From assembly GCF_001610875.1 (NCBI RefSeq), contig NZ_CP011272.1, positions 2,833,988-2,897,987 of the forward strand: DNA of 64,000 bases, read 5' to 3'. The notes under the pieces are model-generated. The model was not told the origin of the DNA. It saw only the letters and a program-made list of their open reading frames with translations, and did not search any database. Source of the DNA: Pirellula sp. SH-Sr6A (GTDB lineage: Bacteria; Planctomycetota; Planctomycetia; Pirellulales; Pirellulaceae). Position 1 is the first letter of the stretch, and each line of letters opens with the position of its first letter. Shown one piece after another: positions 5,206 to 42,783 of this stretch. The translations under genes were made by a program, and so were the position numbers.

Positions 5206-6726
5206 CTACGCAATCCAATCGTGGATGACGTCCCCTGCCACTCCGGTCAATCGCGCGTCGAGGCCTTGGTGACGATACGTTAGCTTCAGATGATCCATGC
5301 CGAACAAATGCAAAACTGTCGCATGAAAATCGTTGACATGAACAGGTTTCTCGATAACCGACCAACCGATCTCGTCGGTGGCACCATAGGTAAGCCCACC
5401 GCGAACACCTCCCCCTGCCATCCAAAGCGAAAACGCAAACGGATGGTGATCGCGGCCTGTCACCTTGCTATACCCAAGCCGGTTTTCACCGAGAGGCGTT
5501 CGGCCGAATTCCCCCGCGAAGATGACCAGCGTCTCATCGAGCAAGCCACGTCGTTTGAGATCGTTTAGCAATGCTGCGACCGGCTGGTCTGCCATGCCGG
5601 CATTGAAGGTCAATTCGTTGTCCAAGTTGGAATGATGATCCCACGAAGCATGAAACAAACTGACGAACCGAACCCCACGCTCGATGAGTCGTCTCGCTAA
5701 CAAACAGTTCGTCGCAAATTGCTTGTACTGCCCCTTACCTCCCGCTCGGTCTGCCTTGATCGGCGGATCTTCTCGGTGGATACCGTACTCCTCCTCGGTT
5801 TCGCGAGTCTCGCCCTTCAAATCGATGAGCTCCGGTGCAGCGCTTTGCATTCGGAAAGCCAGTTCATAGTTGGCGATTCGACTCTGGATTTCAGGATCGG
5901 CAAGCTGCTCAAACCGGTTGCGATTGAGTTGGCTCAACGTTTCGACCGTTGCTCGTTGCAACTCGGGTGGGATCCCTTTTGGAGTTCCCAAATTCAACAC
6001 GGGGTCACCTTGATTTCGAAAGAGAACTCCGGAGTAAAGGGAAGGGAGAATTCCGCTCGACCAGAGGGATGCCCCACCGCTGGTTCCCCGTCCCGCCGAA
6101 AGGACGACGTATCCTGGCAAATCTTGAGACGGACTCCCTAGCCCGTAGGTCAGCCACGATCCCATCGTCGGTAGTCCGAAGAATGGGCGGCCTGCGAGCA
6201 AGGTCAACTGCGCGGGGTGATGATTGAATTGATCCGTGTGCATCGATCGAACCATAAGGATGTCGTCCGCACAGGATCCGATGTGGGGCATCAGGTCGCT
6301 GAACTCCATGCCGCATTGACCGTGCTGGCGGAAGACTCGCTTCGACCCCATGAGCACCGCGGACTCTTTCTTGATGAAGGCAAAGCGCACGCTTTGCGTC
6401 ATCGATTCGGGCAATGGTTGACCATCCAACTCCACCAACTTGGGCTTGGGATCATAAAGATCGATTTGACTGGGCGCCCCCTCCAGAAAAATAAAGATGC
6501 ATCGCTTCGCGCGGGGTGCAAAGTGCGGCGGTTTCGGATTCATGGAGAACACCGGATCGGACGTACTGCGAGACGTAGGTTCGTCGCCGTCAGCGTTCTC
6601 TCTGGCCAAAGCCGCGAGCGCCAAGGCTCCGATTCCATACCCTGCGTTTTCCAAAAAGACCCTCCGGGAATCGCGTTGGACAAACTGGGATAGCTCAGGA
6701 TGTTTCAAAATGGAATGGAGGTCCAT
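5206..6726 (-). CDS. DUF1501 family exported protein
   Basis: The 506-aa protein is a DUF1501 member, an alkaline phosphatase/sulfatase-superfamily fold abundant in planctomycetes. It begins DLHSILKHPELSQFVQRDSRR and has a signal-like stretch (NAGYGIGALALAALA). Characteristic segments are KRCIFIFLEGAPSQIDLYD, LMPHIGSCADDILMVRSMH, FHASWDHHSNLDNEL, VIFAGEFGRTP and GRDHHPFAFSLWMAGGG. The ATG at 6726 lies 2 nt after the stop of the upstream gene, so a longer upstream in-frame start is rejected. The pairing with a PSCyt1/DUF1549/DUF1553 gene is the standard arrangement in this phylum. Biochemical function is not established; polysaccharide or sulfate-ester related roles have been suggested from gene context. 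Confidence 0.92.
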   Translation of the reverse strand: MDLHSILKHPELSQFVQRDSRRVFLENAGYGIGALALAALARENADGDEPTSRSTSDPVFSMNPKPPHFAPRAKRCIFIFLEGAPSQIDLYDPKPKLVELDGQPLPESMTQSVRFAFIKKESAVLMGSKRVFRQHGQCGMEFSDLMPHIGSCADDILMVRSMHTDQFNHHPAQLTLLAGRPFFGLPTMGSWLTYGLGSPSQDLPGYVVLSAGRGTSGGASLWSSGILPSLYSGVLFRNQGDPVLNLGTPKGIPPELQRATVETLSQLNRNRFEQLADPEIQSRIANYELAFRMQSAAPELIDLKGETRETEEEYGIHREDPPIKADRAGGKGQYKQFATNCLLARRLIERGVRFVSLFHASWDHHSNLDNELTFNAGMADQPVAALLNDLKRRGLLDETLVIFAGEFGRTPLGENRLGYSKVTGRDHHPFAFSLWMAGGGVRGGLTYGATDEIGWSVIEKPVHVNDFHATVLHLFGMDHLKLTYRHQGLDARLTGVAGDVIHDWIA

Positions 6727-11903: not shown

Positions 11904-12716
11904 TTAATGATCGGACTCGAAGCCAACTCCTTGCGTCCATCGTTTCAAAATCCAGCGGTTGAGGAGTTGAACGCAAAAGAGGAGAGCCAGTCCTAAGAGA
12001 GTACATGCGATGACAGCCCCAATCATCGAGGCGGTTTTCAAGTTTCCTTGCCGAGCCGTGATGATCGTCCCCAGTCCTTCGTAGGCACCCCGATCCCCCA
12101 CGAAGAACTCGCCGACGATTGCACCGATCACGGCCAGTCCGCTGCTCACACGAAGACCGAGAATAAGCTGTGGAATCGCCGCCGGTATCCGAAGCTTGAT
12201 CAACGTTTGCCACCGGCTTGCTGACTGCATGCGAAAGAGATCTCGCAAATTCTCATTGATTGAAAGAAGCCCGCTCGTGACGTTGGAAATGATTGGAAAA
12301 ATACTGATGATACAAGAGACCAGGACCACGGTTCGAAACTCGTTTCCGAACCAAAGGATCAACAGCGGGGCAATCGCCACAATGGGAACGGTTTGCAGGA
12401 AGATCACATAGGGGTAGAAGGAAAGCCTGAGCCAGGAGGACTGGCTAAAGATCATCGCTACCAAACTGCCGACCAATGCGCTGCAGAGCAATCCCGCGGC
12501 TGCCGACTGAAGAGTGATCCACGCACCCCGCAGTAGAGTCCAACGCTCGCGCACCATTTCGGAGAGGACATCGCTCGGGGGAGGCAGAATCACCTTATGG
12601 ATTTCCAGCCAGCGAACCAGCACTTCCCAGGTCACTAATACCAAAAGAAACACGACAACCGGGAGAAGAAACTTTGGCCAAGCGACTGCGATTCTATGCA
12701 TCGACGACTTATTCAT
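11904..12716 (-). CDS. ABC transporter permease, nitrate/sulfonate/taurine (NitT/TauT) type
   Basis: The 270-aa protein starts at the ATG at 12716 (MNKSSMHRI), which overlaps the ATPase stop by 8 nt. It has about six membrane spans and the binding-protein-dependent transport domain, with the ATPase-coupling EAA-like loop around LRDLFRMQSASRWQTLIKL and the conserved SSGLAVIGAIVGEFFVGDRG. These match SsuC/TauC-type permeases. It pairs with the ATPase encoded immediately upstream. No periplasmic binding-protein gene is nearby, so the substrate cannot be assigned. Confidence 0.9.
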   Translation of the reverse strand: MNKSSMHRIAVAWPKFLLPVVVFLLVLVTWEVLVRWLEIHKVILPPPSDVLSEMVRERWTLLRGAWITLQSAAAGLLCSALVGSLVAMIFSQSSWLRLSFYPYVIFLQTVPIVAIAPLLILWFGNEFRTVVLVSCIISIFPIISNVTSGLLSINENLRDLFRMQSASRWQTLIKLRIPAAIPQLILGLRVSSGLAVIGAIVGEFFVGDRGAYEGLGTIITARQGNLKTASMIGAVIACTLLGLALLFCVQLLNRWILKRWTQGVGFESDH

Positions 12717-33395: not shown

Positions 33396-35342
33396 CTATG
33401 CTTGACGAATAAAGTGGGCCGCATAACTGCGAACTTCTTGACCGTTGAGAACATGGACGGTTCGCAACTGGGCGACCATTGCGTCGCTGAATTGCGACAG
33501 CGGGACATGCACGAGCGATTTACCGAATTGCTTGGCGATTCGCCGCCACGAAGCAGTCGGTGCAATGGGTGACAGGAGAGCGATTTGCTTTGCCTCCGAA
33601 TGTTTGCATGCCGCTGCGATCAGCCTTTCTTCCAGCGTATCAGCGAATTGCAGATCCCGATCCTTCCAAATGTCCGGTATCGGTTTCGGAGGAAACAGAA
33701 ACATCGCCCCCCCGTACGTCGCGACCGCGATGCCTGGACCAAGGATCTCGCGAGAGAAGTCGGTCGCATAGAATGCGAGAGTTGATTCCCAAGCAAACTC
33801 GGCAAACCAAGTCGTCTGCCACGAATAGACCTTCGGGTCGGGGTTAGGATCGAAGATGAAGACGCACGCGTCCAGTGTTCCCACACTGGGTGGCTGAACC
33901 TTCACATAGAGCTGACCATCGTACCAGTGACGCAATGTTTCGCGGATGTCGATACCATCCATCAAGCTCGTTGTGAATTTTTCACTCCGTGCCAAGTCCG
34001 CTCCAATCAGTGCGCGAGCCCGTTCGATCACTCGCGTTCGGAAGCTCTCGATTTTCGCATCGTCGGGTAGCCAAGAGCATTGTTTGTATGGATTCCACTG
34101 GAGTCGCCACTGCCGGGACTCGTCTTTGAGCGGACGGCGATTGAGCTGAAGGGTTCGCCACTCGCCAAGGTGCTGCCCTAATCGGCTGATGGCGGGGACA
34201 ACCTCTCCATCGGGCAATCGCAATTGATGAATCCCCATCTGGACCGAGGACCACGGCAAAGGTTCTTGGAACGCATAGTTGCGGAGGGTTTCCGCAACGT
34301 GAATTGCGAACTGGTCACCGCAGGTTTGTTTCGCAGCCAAAACCAACGTGTACATGTCTGGGGTGAGCCGCCGATCGAGCAATGTCAAATTGCGGATGTA
34401 CTTCAAGCACTGCGAAAGCAGGAGGGGCGAAATGCGCCGAGCCCGTTGGCCAAAATCTGCCAAATAGGAAGCTCGCGCCGAAAGGAGCAAACGTTTCACT
34501 CCGTCGATGGCAGCAGCATGCGGGTCGTCGGAAAGTTCGTAACGCGACTGCTCGTAGACTGCTGTGATGTAAGGGAGTTCTCCGAGAAGAAACACTAAGG
34601 TCGATTCCTCTACGGAATGATTGACCGCTGGCTCGTCATGAAAATCCCCATCGGCCACCCATGGGGTAGCTAGCTGTCGTTGGTAGGCTTCACGTAGCCA
34701 AGGCCAATGCCCCACCGAGCAGAGCATCACGATCTTCTTGTAGTGCTGGCGGAGAGAAAGCAGCTTGGAGGCCATCGATTCGATCCTCGCCAAGACTTGC
34801 TCGGACTGAGGACGCGGAACGGTAGTTAAGATCGCCGCGTTGTAGGTATCCAGAGGCACTTCCTTCAGCGCAAATCCATCGGGGACTAGGAATTCCTCGT
34901 CGCCTGTAAAAACGTCCGTTTCGAGATCCACGAATCGAATGGGGATGCGTTCCCCCATCGCATATCGAATCGCAGCAATGACGCTTTGACTCGGGTCGAT
35001 CGGCACGTAGCTATACGGCAGGGACTCGCCCGAGAAGGGAGCGAGTTCCGAGTCTTCTTCGTCCTGGTCGCCATCGGGGTCTTCCGACTCTCCGGAATCG
35101 AGCCAAGCTTGCTCCGCCTCCCAACGCGAACTGGCCGCTGGGGCTTGTGCGACCAAGGAAATCGTTGGGAGCTGCTCCACTCCGGCGAGCACCGACTCGC
35201 GAAACGAGGGTGGAAGCGGGACGGCCAAGCAATCGACTTGATGCTGAAGCAGCCATTCCTCCACGGCTCGAGCGTTGGCGCCGCTGCGATGCACGACGGG
35301 CAGCAGGGTCACTTTATCATCCAAACGAAAGCTATCGCTCAA
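33396..35342 (-). CDS. TIKI/EreA-like protein, DUF5682-like, partner of MoxR
   Basis: The 648-aa protein is not firmly recognised. The opening [31 protein letters not shown], the repeated [17 protein letters not shown] segment and [15 protein letters not shown] resemble the TIKI/EreA/TraB-like fold of DUF5682 proteins, in which conserved His and acidic residues suggest a metal-dependent hydrolase. An acidic linker ([13 protein letters not shown]) sits near residue 95. The likely start is a TTG at 35342, as no ATG occurs nearby. It is divergent from a MoxR ATPase gene by about 100 nt; DUF5682 genes often neighbour MoxR genes, which supports the assignment. The usual vWA partner is not seen here. 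Confidence 0.55.
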
Positions 35343-35445
35343 TTGGGGATACTCCGTGGTCGAATCTGGTACAATCCTTTTGCATGCGAATCCCGTCCCG
35401 TTCTTCTCTACTTTCCGTGGCCAGTCCGAAATCCAATCGACCGTT

Positions 35446-36417
35446 ATGCAGGATAAAATTCAAATCGATGGCGTCAGCCTTACGCTCAGCAATCCGATTA
35501 CAAACGAATTGCAATGGATCGGTCAAGGAGAGGTATTGCGGCAATTACTGGCCTGTTGGCTCGTTGTCGATGACAAAGATCTCCCTCTCGCACCTCGTTT
35601 AGTCGGCCCGCCTGGCATCGGCAAAACCGCCTTGGCGATGGCTGCTGCGAAAGCGAGAAATCAATCTCTGTACATTTACCAGTGTACCGCAGACACGCGA
35701 CCAGAAGACCTGCTCATCACCCCAATCTTAGGGAGCGATGGAAAAATTGCTTATCATGCGTCTCCCTTGGTCACCGCGATGATCAAGGGAGGAGTCTGCA
35801 TTCTGGACGAAGGGAATCGGATGAATGAAAAGTCGTGGGCATCTCTCGCTCCACTCCTGGACCATCGTCGATATATCGAGTCGATTGTGGCTGGGGTCTC
35901 GATTCAAGCCCACCGCGATTTCCGATGCGCGGTAACCATGAATCAAGATGACTCGACTTATGAGATTCCCGACTACATCATGAGTCGGCTTCAACCATCG
36001 CTCGCGGTCGGTTTCCCGAACCGGGACGATGAGCTGGCAATTTTGAAGTATCATCTCCCCTTCGCTGCGGAAGAACTTCTAACGCTGACGATCGACTTCT
36101 TGCAGCAATCGCATTCCTTGCAATTGGACTATTCCGCGCGCGATGGTATCCAACTACTCCGGTACGCGATGAAACTATTAGCGCAAGACCCAACTCACCC
36201 GGTCGCCAAGGATCAAGTCTGGCGGCAGGCATTGGTCTCCTGTCTTGGAGAGGATGCGTTGGATTTGCAGTCGGCTCGAGAGCGGAAGTCGCGTTCTCTG
36301 GGTGCGAATACTCTACCGCACGGTTTGGGAGACTTCTTCCTCGACCCAGACGATCCGATGCACCCGGACTTCGATGACGACTCCTTGGATGACGACTCCT
36401 TGGACGATGATCGATGA
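35446..36417 (+). CDS. MoxR family AAA+ ATPase
   Basis: The 323-aa protein is an AAA+ ATPase with Walker [10 protein letters not shown] (residues 54-62), the insert [31 protein letters not shown], Walker B ILDEGNRM, sensor-1 region CAVTMNQDD and an arginine-finger segment [12 protein letters not shown]. The ATG at 35446 precedes the first conserved part; the open frame extends upstream without similarity. The C-terminus is a very acidic tail made by a duplicated 15-bp unit ([14 protein letters not shown]). MoxR proteins act as chaperones that mature partner proteins, often with vWA proteins. It overlaps the HD-domain gene by 4 nt. Confidence 0.9.
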
Positions 36418-36929
36418 GCTTGGAAAAACCGCCTTCATCCGATCTGGAGAGCCCCCTGGAGAGGGCGATCGAGCTCGCGACCCGATTCCATCGTGGTCAG
36501 CGAGACAAGCAGGGGAATGATTACATTCAACACCCGCTCCGCATGATGATGATGAGTGAGGATCCTCGGGTTCAACAGGCGGCCGTACTGCACGACGTCT
36601 TGGAAGACACGGCCGCCACACTGCAGGACTTGATCGAGGCTGGCGTCGACCTGGAAGCGTGCGAAGCAGTTCAACTCTTGACGCATCAACGCGAGATGTC
36701 TTACGCCGACTATATTGTCCTGCTTCAACGCAACCCGATTGCGAGAGCCGCAAAATTGCTGGATTTGCAAGACAACTACCGCCTCGATCGAGTTGCCTAT
36801 CGGGAAGGGTACGAACACGAGGATCGAGCGAGAATCGAGAAGTACATTCTCACATACCAATTTCTAACAGACCGATTGGATGAGGAAACGTATCGCCGTC
36901 GAATGGCATTGCTGGTTTCTTCACAGTGA
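36414..36929 (+). CDS. HD-domain phosphohydrolase (SpoT/Mesh1-like)
   Basis: The 171-aa protein matches the HD domain of RelA/SpoT-type hydrolases: [20 protein letters not shown] with the first His, [18 protein letters not shown] with the HD pair and ED, and a downstream Asp in AKLLDLQDN. The length is that of small alarmone hydrolases or related HD enzymes. No synthetase domain is present. Substrate may be (p)ppGpp or another nucleotide; this is by analogy. The ATG overlaps the MoxR stop and it is followed 13 nt later by the ModA-ModC fusion gene. Confidence 0.83.
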
Positions 36930-36942
36930 GTTGAGATCGCGG

Positions 36943-38199
36943 ATGGCCAAAGTATTCATTGCGTTAGCGCTTTCTCTATTTGCAGCCGTTGGCATCGTGA
37001 TTTCGCTTGTTCGATCGGCTCCACCTTGCAGTGATTCACGATTGGGGGAAAGCCGCGAGGGTGAGAGGGAGGTGCAACTTTATGTTGCGTCCAGTAACCG
37101 CGCGGTGCTTGAAGAGATCTGCCAACTCTATGAGGCGAAGACAGGGAATCGTGTTGTGATGCATTTTGGTGCATCCCAAACTCTTTTGGCGCAGTTGGAA
37201 ATCGCGCGCACTGGCGCATTGTTCCTTCCTGCGGACGACAGTTACCTGCGAATTGCAACCCAGAAGGGGTTGGTGGACGAGGTCTTTCCAATCGCCACCA
37301 TGCGCATCGGTCTTGCAGTGAGAAAAGGAAATCCAAAAGGCGTCACCGGATGGAGTTCACTTCTCCAGCCAAAAATTCGATTGGTTCAGGCCAATCCGGA
37401 CACGGCGGCAGTCGGTCAACAAACGCGACAGATGCTGCAGAGAGCGAACCTTTGGCGTGATCTTGAATCGGCAACATTGGCTTTTCGATCGAACGTGAAT
37501 GAAGTCGCGAATGATGTTCGATTAGGGGTCGCGGACGTAGGAATTGTTTGCGATGCGATGGTTCGGTGGAAAGAGAGCGGCATGATTGAGCTCATCGACG
37601 TGACTGCATGCTCACGGAGTTTTCGTCGTGAGCACGTTTCATTTCGTATCGAATCGGGGTGTTATGGCGTACTGATGGGACCGACAGGGGTCGGGAAGAC
37701 AACTGTCCTAGAAGCCCTTTGCGGCTTGAAGCCGATCGCGGCGGGACAGATTTGGATCGGTTCCAAAGAGATGACCGATGTAGCCGTCGCGGATCGCCAA
37801 CTGGGGCATGTGCCCCAAGATTTGGCACTGTTCCCGACCATGACCGTTGAGCAACAACTCGCATTTCCCCTGCGAGTGAAGCCTTGGAGTCAAGAGAGGA
37901 TTCGTAAACGGGTTCCCGAAATAGCCGAGAAACTTGGAATCGCTTCCCTCCTGCATCACTATCCACAAGCTCTTAGCGGAGGGGAATCCCAGCGGGTCGC
38001 TTGGGGACGAGCCCTCGCGTTTCACCCTGAAGTCCTGTTGCTGGATGAACCGCTCCGTTCCCTAGACGAAGCGACTCGCCTTGAATTACAGGCATTGCTG
38101 AAAGAGATCCATCTTCAATCAGGAATGACCGTTCTTCATGTCACCCACAGCGACGAAGAAGCAGCGACACTCGCCGATGTACGGATTCATTTTTCCTAG
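36943..38199 (+). CDS. In-frame fusion of truncated molybdate-binding protein (ModA-like) and ModC-like ATPase
   Basis: This 418-aa chain joins two parts of an ABC importer. Residues 1-25 are a signal or membrane anchor (FIALALSLFAAVGIVISLV). Residues 44-210 match a ModA-type binding protein: YVASSNRAVLEEICQLYEAKTG, FGASQTLLAQLE, GALFLPADDSYLR, RIGLAVRKGNP. The last 50 or so residues of a normal ModA are missing. From about residue 214 it is an ATPase with Walker A GPTGVGKTT (246-254), Q292, LSGGESQ (344-350), Walker B VLLLDEP (364-370) and H402, without the TOBE/MOP domain. An ATG at 37582 (MIELID) could start the ATPase separately. No modB permease is present. It is either a deletion scar or a real fusion. 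Confidence 0.85.
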   Translation: MAKVFIALALSLFAAVGIVISLVRSAPPCSDSRLGESREGEREVQLYVASSNRAVLEEICQLYEAKTGNRVVMHFGASQTLLAQLEIARTGALFLPADDSYLRIATQKGLVDEVFPIATMRIGLAVRKGNPKGVTGWSSLLQPKIRLVQANPDTAAVGQQTRQMLQRANLWRDLESATLAFRSNVNEVANDVRLGVADVGIVCDAMVRWKESGMIELIDVTACSRSFRREHVSFRIESGCYGVLMGPTGVGKTTVLEALCGLKPIAAGQIWIGSKEMTDVAVADRQLGHVPQDLALFPTMTVEQQLAFPLRVKPWSQERIRKRVPEIAEKLGIASLLHHYPQALSGGESQRVAWGRALAFHPEVLLLDEPLRSLDEATRLELQALLKEIHLQSGMTVLHVTHSDEEAATLADVRIHFS

Positions 38200-38248: not shown

Positions 38249-39757
38249 ATGAGCAACAGCTCCGATATGGACGGTGATTCCTCTGCATTCCAATCCACGA
38301 GCAACGACTCCCGGAATTCTGTTCTGGGGGATATCGGTATGTGCGCAGCTGCTGGGGGGATGGGCTGGGGGATCCGAGGGCAATACGGACACGAGACGGG
38401 TGCAATGATTGCGGGAGTCCTTGTGGGACTAGCGATATTGCTTCGCTTCACACCCAACGCTCGATCTCTTTCAGGTGCGCGCGCTGCAGCGATGTTCGCG
38501 GTTGCCATCGGGGTAGGAGGTTCGATGACGTATGGTCAAACGACTGGACTGACACACGACCCTAAACTGGTAGGGAATTGGGGTGCGCTGCTCTGGGGGA
38601 TGCTTGGCCTTGGGATCAAAGGCGGACTTTGGATTGGAATCGCGGCAACTTTTTTGGGCGCTGGATTAAGCGGAGTTCACTATCGCTGGTGGGAATGGGT
38701 TTTTGTACTCGCGCTGCTCTACGGTGCGCAGTGGATAGGAGTTGTGGTTATCAATTGCCCGTTCGATCCTGAAAACCATCGGCTCCCGTGGATCTACTTT
38801 TCGAGCGACTGGCGGTGGTCCCCCGATCACGAATGGAAGCCCCGTCCTGAGGTTTGGGGAGGCATTCTATTCTGCTATAGCACTCTTTTGTTCTATCTCG
38901 GTTGGTTTCGCGTTGACCGTCTCGCTCTGAAGCTCGGGTTATGGGGCGCATTGGGGGGCGCTGTCGGCTTCCCAGCCGGGCAGTCCCTCCAAGCGTTTTA
39001 TGGATGGAACCGGGAGTGGTTCCACACGCTAGCTTGGACTGCAAAGATCAATTGGTGGAACATGATGGAGATTGCATTCGGCGCGATCATGGCGGCAACG
39101 TTAGCGATCGGACTTTACCTGCATCGCAATGAGATTCGTCCGAGAGCAAACCCGGTTGACGAAGCGATGGGACGAGGGGCTTGGGAGTACAGCCTTCTAT
39201 CGCTACATGCGATTCTCCTTGCGTTGGCCGAGTTCACGTCCGGTATGCCCATTCTCAGCCATCTCTACGATGACGGCCTCTCCCTCCTTTTCCTGCCCAT
39301 CGTCCTGATATGCCGCGGGTTCGCAGCTCCCTACTTTATATTGTTACCGATCGTCTTGATTCCTATCGCCGGCAAAACGATCCGCCAATTGGGATACCTA
39401 GAACCTCAGGTTCCGCTGATTCTCGCGTGGATCATTTACGGGGCTTTGCCGATTTGCCTCATGACAGCAATCGCTTGGTACTCGTCACGCAACGCCGAAA
39501 GAGAACGAGCCAGCAAATTTGCGTCGAGAGCATTGCTCACAGCGACTTGGGTTTACTTTGGGCTAAATTTTGGATTCTTTCGCTACCCTTTACCTTGGGA
39601 GGAGTGGACGGCTCGCACCCCCAGTAATCTCATTTTTATGTTTTGCGCGTTGGTATTAACCGCGGGATGTCTAAGAGATGTTTTCAAAGACGGGAAAACA
39701 AAATGCAGCGAAACCGAGCTCTCTCAGGGTGAATCAATTCAGAGCAGCCGCGACTAA
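38249..39757 (+). CDS. Polytopic membrane protein of unknown function
   Basis: The 502-aa protein has a soluble N-terminal stretch of about 25 residues and then about 12 hydrophobic spans. Unusual glycine-rich helices include [19 protein letters not shown], where the conserved GQYGHETG is probably functional, and [25 protein letters not shown] soluble loop around [17 protein letters not shown] is Trp-rich. The ATG at 38249 has GAGGTGG upstream. Similar proteins seem common in planctomycetes and verrucomicrobia but no transport family is recognised. Its stop overlaps that of the convergent dehydrogenase gene. Confidence 0.78.
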
Positions 39758-41223: not shown

Positions 41224-42783
41224 CTAACCGATGTGCCATAAAGTTCGGATGGGTAACCCGATTCGACGGAGTTGGGGAAGGATCGCTTCGTCGATACGTT
41301 TTTTTTCTTCTCGTCCAAGAATGATCGAAGTACGACTGGTCAAAACAATCACCACCGCTGCGACGCACATCGAAGGTAAGGCACCCAACAGAAGCACCAC
41401 CGGCAGGAGACTTAAGACAACGCTGGTTCGATCCAATCCAACATCATGGCAAGACAGGGACCACCAAGTCATAAGGAGAATGAACGCGCCCGCCAACGCA
41501 GTCGCCGCCATCGCTCCTTCAAGACCATAAATTGGAACCCACCAAGCGTTGAGACCAAGGTTGACCAAAAGCCCCAACGCGAGAATGAACCCGACTACTC
41601 GTCCTTTCTCAATGCACCAGAAGTAATTCTGTAGCAACGTCGCCGTGGCCAAGAGACAGCAGTGGGCTAACGCAAGAGGCATGATCGCCAATCCCTCGCT
41701 AAAGCGACCTTCGAGAAAATGATGAAATAATGGAGGAGCGATGACCAACGAAAGGATCGATAGCAGGAAAAAGAACCCCATGGAAAGTTTCGACGTGAGT
41801 TGGAGCGCCTCTTTCACTCGATGTTTGTTGCCGCTCTCCCAGTCCGCCGCCAAGTAGGGGAGAAGAAGCGAACTTAACATCATCGTCAGGCTCGTTAGTA
41901 GAAGCGGCAAGATCCTCGCACTGTGAAACTGGCCGACCAAGGCTGCACCGATTTCCTGCGAAGGTGCCAGATACAAAAGCATGTATCGATCGACGACATC
42001 AAATAAATTCGATAGAAGATTCATTGCCCAGATGCTCAGCGCAAAAGGGACCACTCGATTCCACATCGCACGATTCGATAACGGTTGAGATGTACCTCCA
42101 GTCTCTCTCCAAACACATACCAAGCTCCCCAAGGAAGGAAGCAAACCGCAAAGCGAAGCGGCTGCGAATGCAATGAGAATGGTTCGCCAATCCGGCCAGA
42201 ACCATAGACCTAAGACGCTGAACATTGTAAAGCTCAGCGAGTTAACGGTGTGCATCGCGGAGACGACGCGCCCCTTTCGAAGGCCATTCAGCAACTCGGT
42301 GGTGGAGTTGAATAACACCACGCTGAGCAATGCGATCACTAAGATGCTCATCGCACTCAGGCCTGTCTCAGCGCCGAAGATCCAATTGCCAGTTGATGGG
42401 TTCGCTACCAAGAGCAATGTCGAAACGAATGCGACACCCATCGCACTTACCACAATCACTCTCAGCAAGAAGGTGCGCAATTGACCGCGAAGTCGATAGC
42501 TTTCGATCAATTTGCCAAACGTGCCGGGCAATCCGAGAACAGCGAGAGGGGCTGCGAGAAGTAGAAAACTGCTGGCGAGCGCCCAGAGTCCAAGGCCGCC
42601 ATCATCAAGAAATCTGCAGAAGCTAAGATTGCGAAAGAAACCGATTGCCCGCTGTCCGACATTGGCAACGAGCATAAACGCAAGGCCGGATGCGAGTGAG
42701 TCTTGGGCGAGTTGGGTCGGCGTGCTTCTAGGATCGATTGTGCTCAAGTCGGAATCGGGCTTGGCGAGAGAACCTACACTCAC
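41224..42783 (-). CDS. Polysaccharide/lipid-linked oligosaccharide flippase (Wzx-like, MATE superfamily)
   Basis: The 519-aa protein has about 14 membrane spans arranged as in Wzx flippases, with the opening FMLVANVGQRAIGFFRNLSF and FCRFLDDGGLGLWALASSFL typical of the polysaccharide biosynthesis protein family. The initiator is probably GTG at 42783. A C-terminal basic tail follows. It precedes the UDP-glucose dehydrogenase gene by 45 nt on the same strand, so the pair may serve export of a glucuronate-containing polysaccharide. No glycosyltransferase or polymerase gene is adjacent. Confidence 0.87.
   Translation of the reverse strand: MSVGSLAKPDSDLSTIDPRSTPTQLAQDSLASGLAFMLVANVGQRAIGFFRNLSFCRFLDDGGLGLWALASSFLLLAAPLAVLGLPGTFGKLIESYRLRGQLRTFLLRVIVVSAMGVAFVSTLLLVANPSTGNWIFGAETGLSAMSILVIALLSVVLFNSTTELLNGLRKGRVVSAMHTVNSLSFTMFSVLGLWFWPDWRTILIAFAAASLCGLLPSLGSLVCVWRETGGTSQPLSNRAMWNRVVPFALSIWAMNLLSNLFDVVDRYMLLYLAPSQEIGAALVGQFHSARILPLLLTSLTMMLSSLLLPYLAADWESGNKHRVKEALQLTSKLSMGFFFLLSILSLVIAPPLFHHFLEGRFSEGLAIMPLALAHCCLLATATLLQNYFWCIEKGRVVGFILALGLLVNLGLNAWWVPIYGLEGAMAATALAGAFILLMTWWSLSCHDVGLDRTSVVLSLLPVVLLLGALPSMCVAAVVIVLTSRTSIILGREEKKRIDEAILPQLRRIGLPIRTLWHIG

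Follow-up and report, generated by a model that had tools for sequence, protein, structure and literature searches.

The window, the whole 64-kb stretch of DNA analysed here, carries an open reading frame in which a truncated molybdate-binding domain of the ModA type runs directly into an ABC ATPase domain. The fused gene is very probably the deletion remnant of a second, spare and fast-evolving modA-modB-modC operon; the fusion is a real sequence feature, probably of ordinary origin, and its single frame would be a by-product of the four-base overlap between modB and modC. A deletion scar was among the origins offered by an earlier, sequence-only reading, and it has gained support from an out-of-frame modB tail at the junction, the kept modC start, the intact operons present in relatives and in the genome itself, and a search in which no second fusion was listed.

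The fused frame and its parts

The frame occupies positions 36943-38199 of the forward strand and encodes 418 amino acids with no internal stop. The open reading frame listing opens it earlier, at an ATG at 36880 that lies within the 3′ end of the preceding HD gene. The start at 36943 is backed by a partial homologue in one relative (G026), which has a Met shortly behind its HD gene, a hydrophobic N-terminus and upstream in-frame stops. The features discussed below are as follows.

36943..38199, + strand: fused frame, truncated ModA-type domain and complete ABC ATPase domain (open reading frame list, Pfam)
36955..37011, + strand: hydrophobic N-terminal segment, residues 5-23, signal or anchor (hydropathy)
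37075..37563, + strand: first ModA-type binding domain, residues 45 to about 207, C-terminal part absent (Pfam, relatives)
37549..37551, + strand: Cys203, which is Tyr, Phe or Trp in 47 of 47 other loci (alignment)
37552..37563, + strand: probable deletion junction, its place inferred from where ModA similarity ends and ModB-tail similarity begins
37556..37585, + strand: stub of the modB tail in another frame, RWFGGKRAA-stop, whose TGA at 37583-37585 overlaps the modC start
37582..38199, + strand: modC, with the ancestral ATG start and a complete short ATPase of 205 aa (Pfam, relatives)
37678..37704, + strand: Walker A, GPTGVGKTT (alignment)
37972..37986, + strand: ABC signature, LSGGE (alignment)
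38032..38049, + strand: Walker B, VLLLDE, with the D-loop behind it reading Arg372-Ser373 for Ser-Ala

That a truncated ModA domain is joined in frame to an ATPase, as first read from the letters, is borne out by the open frame and by Pfam, which matches residues 45-213 to positions 2-173 of the 227-position SBP_bac_11 profile (E 2.9e-37) and residues 231-371 to ABC_tran (E 1.3e-27). The binding domain is incomplete, about the last quarter of SBP_bac_11 (profile positions 174-227) being absent, and the ATPase carries the full set of nucleotide-binding motifs with an altered D-loop. The N-terminal part passes the cut-off of the modA model TIGR01256 (70.1 versus 62.5 bits) and the full chain misses that of the ModC model TIGR02142 (125.6 versus 285.05 bits); the best specific ATPase model is WtpC, at 188.2 bits with 440 needed. 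Because the ATPase part reaches no specific cut-off among the models shown, it is named ModC after its homologues and the operons in which they lie. The specific ModC models appear to include a C-terminal part that ModC of this lineage is without.

Pfam detects neither a TOBE nor a permease domain in the fused chain, and no Rfam family exceeds its threshold in the window. A ModABC importer has a ModB permease in its operon, of which the fusion retains just a short out-of-frame tail. The earlier statement that ModB and TOBE are missing thus stands for the chain itself, but modB is absent at this place alone and a ModC without TOBE is normal in this lineage.

The absence of a visible membrane crossing between the two domains, also pointed out at first reading, was confirmed by a hydropathy scan. 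Residues 5-23, with a mean Kyte-Doolittle value of 2.74, form the single strongly hydrophobic stretch; among 19-residue stretches that begin at residues 24-214 the best reaches 1.04, and no second membrane span is visible up to residue 214. A chain exported at its N-terminus would put the ATPase on the side without ATP, an unexported chain would leave the binding domain in the cytoplasm, and in neither topology would an importer result. The fused chain should not transport, because it has no permease and an incomplete binding domain, and with a single N-terminal membrane segment both domains would lie on the same side of the membrane. A ModC translated from the internal start would simply be a cytoplasmic ATPase of the ordinary kind.

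The junction compared with intact operons

The organization from which the fusion would derive is well represented. Reading of 58 loci with this type of ModC, the genome's own second locus included, placed modA, modB and modC matches all on one strand in 52, and in 49 of the 55 loci with both genes the final base of the last modB codon is also the first of modC, giving a four-base overlap. The modC start codon is ATG in 41, GTG in 14 and TTG in 3 (n=58). One copy, L050 of genome G023, was left out of the ModC set for its in-frame stop at modC codon 3 (5746-5754, +), which marks either a broken copy or a sequencing error. Six of the 52 loci (L046, L052, L160, L169, L170 and L175) have a single ModA-type domain; the ModA match extends into a second tandem domain in the other 46, among which modA is incomplete in the stretch read in L048, L140 and L151. 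The tandem-domain modA product of this lineage is about 520-560 aa long and stands ahead of modB and modC, as at L039:3831-5507 (-).

A separate modB elsewhere in the genome, the existence of which the sequence-only reading had left to be checked, was found within a complete modA-modB-modC at about C1:3606717-3610006 on the minus strand. According to Pfam, this intact copy has two SBP_bac_11 stretches, a ModB with BPD_transp_1, and a 212-aa ModC with ABC_tran and no TOBE match. The window also holds a PF00528 permease domain at 11937-12476 (-), with 107 bits in a frame of 321 aa about 24 kb from the fusion, which went unmatched when this genome was searched for ModB.

Alignment with other ModC proteins begins at Met214 of the fused chain, their start position, and the internal ATG at 37582 is for this reason taken as the old modC start; its ATGA context is kept. 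Upstream, similarity to the binding domains of relatives ends near residue 207, and at position 210 the fusion has Lys, where 45 of 47 other loci carry Tyr or Phe. The roughly 27-30 bases between the end of this similarity and the modC start, when translated in the frame set by the overlapping TGA, which differs from the fused frame, give MRWFGGKRAA-stop, and the ModB C-termini of relatives read in the same register LRWFGTGLTT-stop (L147) and LRWIGATLSS-stop (L040). A tail score was built from the distinct ModB tails of the family (35 at 11 residues), with other stop-free ATGA contexts in the window as controls. The score of the window tail was reached by 0 of 313 control contexts at 9 residues and 0 of 305 at 10, and exceeded by 1 of 295 at 11; the likeness, first spotted by eye, is short, and its 6.8 bits lie far under the family median of 21.3. 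Pieces of both flanking genes thus meet in operon order at one junction, as in a deletion remnant.

Relative to one-domain operons the missing span is 1.0-1.25 kb, and relative to two-domain operons 1.7-1.95 kb, with an outlier of 3.1 kb (L147). A single internal deletion of about 1.0-1.9 kb in the spare operon would have taken the end of the first binding domain, any second binding domain and all of modB save its last nine or so codons. The ModA frame would then have run through the modB stub into modC without meeting a stop, since the start of modC lies within the modB stop and is read in a different frame from modB. A one-in-three chance would suffice to open such a frame, with no need for selection.

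An assembly error that skipped 1-2 kb could produce the same picture and would fit a fusion seen in this genome only. We consider it very improbable, as the genome is a single contig of 6.53 Mb that is 100% complete, the junction on inspection shows at most a few shared bases and no long repeat, and divergence extends across the whole row, beyond the junction.

The surroundings of the fusion give further indications. Upstream, window positions 33396-36929 hold a block made up of a 648-aa protein without a Pfam match (-), a MoxR-type AAA ATPase (+) and an HD-domain protein (+), and these three genes are syntenic in G026, G022 and G024; identity to G026 is 95% for the MoxR-type protein, 90% for the 648-aa protein and 69% for the HD protein. 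Directly behind the HD gene of G026 (L186:4770-4901), a similar hydrophobic N-terminus opens, and the contig ends after 43 codons. The ancestor shared with G026 therefore probably had a mod-like gene at this place. The rest of the operon was not found in G026, where one weak match (E 0.0064) was obtained and other permeases show 30-33% identity, and the approximately 4-5 kb read behind the HD gene in each of G022, G024 and G011 contained nothing matching the binding domain, ModB or ModC. Earlier, an intact modABC at this locus in relatives, with the fusion confined to this genome, had been named as the refuting outcome. Relatives do carry intact modABC operons and, among the matches listed, the fusion is seen only here, but these operons sit in other surroundings: no intact modA-modB-modC was found in relatives at this exact site, which in G026 is cut by the contig end.

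When the neighbours of the fusion were compared with the loci of the 58 relatives, only the 519-aa gene at 41224 matched any. Downstream of the fusion, a gene at 38249-39757 (+) encodes 502 aa with numerous hydrophobic stretches; the protein matches nothing in Pfam or NCBIfam and has relatives in 10 of 60 genomes, this one included.

Divergence and possible products of the frame

Orthologous fusions in several species, proposed at the outset as the mark of a functional protein, were not encountered. No second match spanning both halves was present among the matches listed for 60 near relatives, 241 family, 396 order and 397 class genomes, four overlapping sets that each include this genome, the order and class sets being drawn from larger groups and a few candidates being scored per genome. 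A peptide-pattern scan of genome contigs, which finds close relatives only, returned 55 loci, none listed as matching both halves. On these grounds a conserved functional fusion was rejected. Sixteen further loci, chosen for ModC in long open frames (426-693 aa), were also read and rejected as fusions: the binding domain and ModC lie in separate frames in 13, no binding domain occurs in the stretch read in the other three (L202, L205 and L207), and modB is present in all 16. A literature search named no ModA-ModC fusion, which is no proof of absence from print; the fusions treated in the accessible part of PMC6147048 concern molybdoproteins.

Both halves of the fused frame have diverged strongly. 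In the ModC tree (58 rows) no end branch is longer than that of the fusion (1.68, against a median of 0.45); in the binding-domain tree (48 rows, median 0.22) its branch of 1.27 is exceeded only by that of L176 (1.44). Owing to these long branches its placement in both trees is unsure. The binding-domain set comprised 47 of the 58 loci, excluding those without a usable match, L048 (contig end) and L140 (a run of N). The ModC part keeps 70 of 82 columns that are at least 90% conserved (the second lowest row) and 49 of 53 that are at least 97% conserved (the lowest of all rows), and the binding domain keeps 35 of 44 (fifth lowest) and 13 of 16 (equal lowest), respectively. In the ATPase motifs examined, the fusion retains all columns that do not vary among the 57 other loci, the changes being Arg-Ser for Ser-Ala in the D-loop and Trp354 for Leu. 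In solved ModA structures the equivalent of residue 203 is Tyr in 4rxl and Ala in 9wgd, and the accessible part of PMC9171197 reports that Pseudomonas aeruginosa ModA binds with four residues and others with five. Given the Ala of 9wgd and the four residues of the P. aeruginosa protein, as far as that source goes, Cys203 alone is no proof of lost binding.

Several observations run against a deletion scar: the ModB-tail likeness is short and low-scoring, no relative was found with the intact operon at this exact site, the frame contains no stop despite its long branches, and the ATPase-motif columns invariant in 57 other loci are all kept, unlike in a long-dead remnant. A frame this changed yet free of stops can hardly have drifted freely for long, and most of the divergence probably arose under constraint, before the deletion.

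That the full-length chain itself works, for example as a membrane-anchored or soluble molybdate-sensing ATPase, seems to us hardly credible. The bifunctional soluble sensor offered at first reading gained no support. In favour of a working chain are the length of the open frame and the many conserved positions retained in both halves, but no second case is among the matches listed in the four genome sets, the binding domain is without profile positions 174-227, the aromatic residue at 203 is lost and there is just one hydrophobic segment.

It is possible, judging from the sequence, that the frame gives two products, as the internal ATG coincides with the start of the ancestral modC and has an average ribosome-site score. 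The score upstream of 37582 is -5.1, against a median of -5.3 for 58 modC starts, 33 of which are as strong or stronger. ModC from its own preserved start may remain useful, perhaps with another permease such as the intact ModB. A separate cytoplasmic ModC that is still made from 37582 and serves another permease, with the binding half as a mere leader, would be an addition to the deletion model and not an alternative origin; it is rather unlikely in our estimation. The start codon with its ATGA context, the ribosome-site score, the 49 of 53 retained columns and the invariant motif columns are in its favour, but 19% of random window positions also reach -5.1, 49 of 53 is the lowest count of any row, the D-loop is altered, an intact ModC is already present in the genome, and modC in the intact operon was probably started by coupling to modB, which is lost here. 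Still more doubtful is a version in which the fused chain is inert or regulatory and the ATPase made from the internal modC start also serves the intact importer, so that the overlapping-gene start would be why the chance fusion was kept.

Implications and comparison with known systems

For the deletion remnant that we favour, the main implication is one of caution, since a single deletion, helped by a four-base overlap between genes, can make a loss look like a long, clean frame that would be annotated as a fusion protein. If ModC does continue to be made from its old start, the locus would illustrate, on a small scale, how a gene can survive within a fused frame.

Compared with the ModABC importer of this lineage, which usually consists of a tandem-domain ModA, ModB and a short ModC, the parts of the fusion show about 49-57% identity to those of the best loci, the same order of pieces and the same modC start; unlike it, the fusion is without modB, the second binding domain and the end of the first, and its remaining pieces share one frame. 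As in other deletion-fusion remnants in operons, neighbouring genes have been joined by the loss of what lay between them and intact copies exist elsewhere, whereas the join here, unlike such remnants generally, is in frame through the four-base modB/modC overlap. Importers of the OpuA/GlnPQ type have their binding domain fused to the membrane subunit. They resemble the fusion in tying a binding domain to another ABC importer subunit, but the partner in the fusion is the cytoplasmic ATPase, with no membrane domain.
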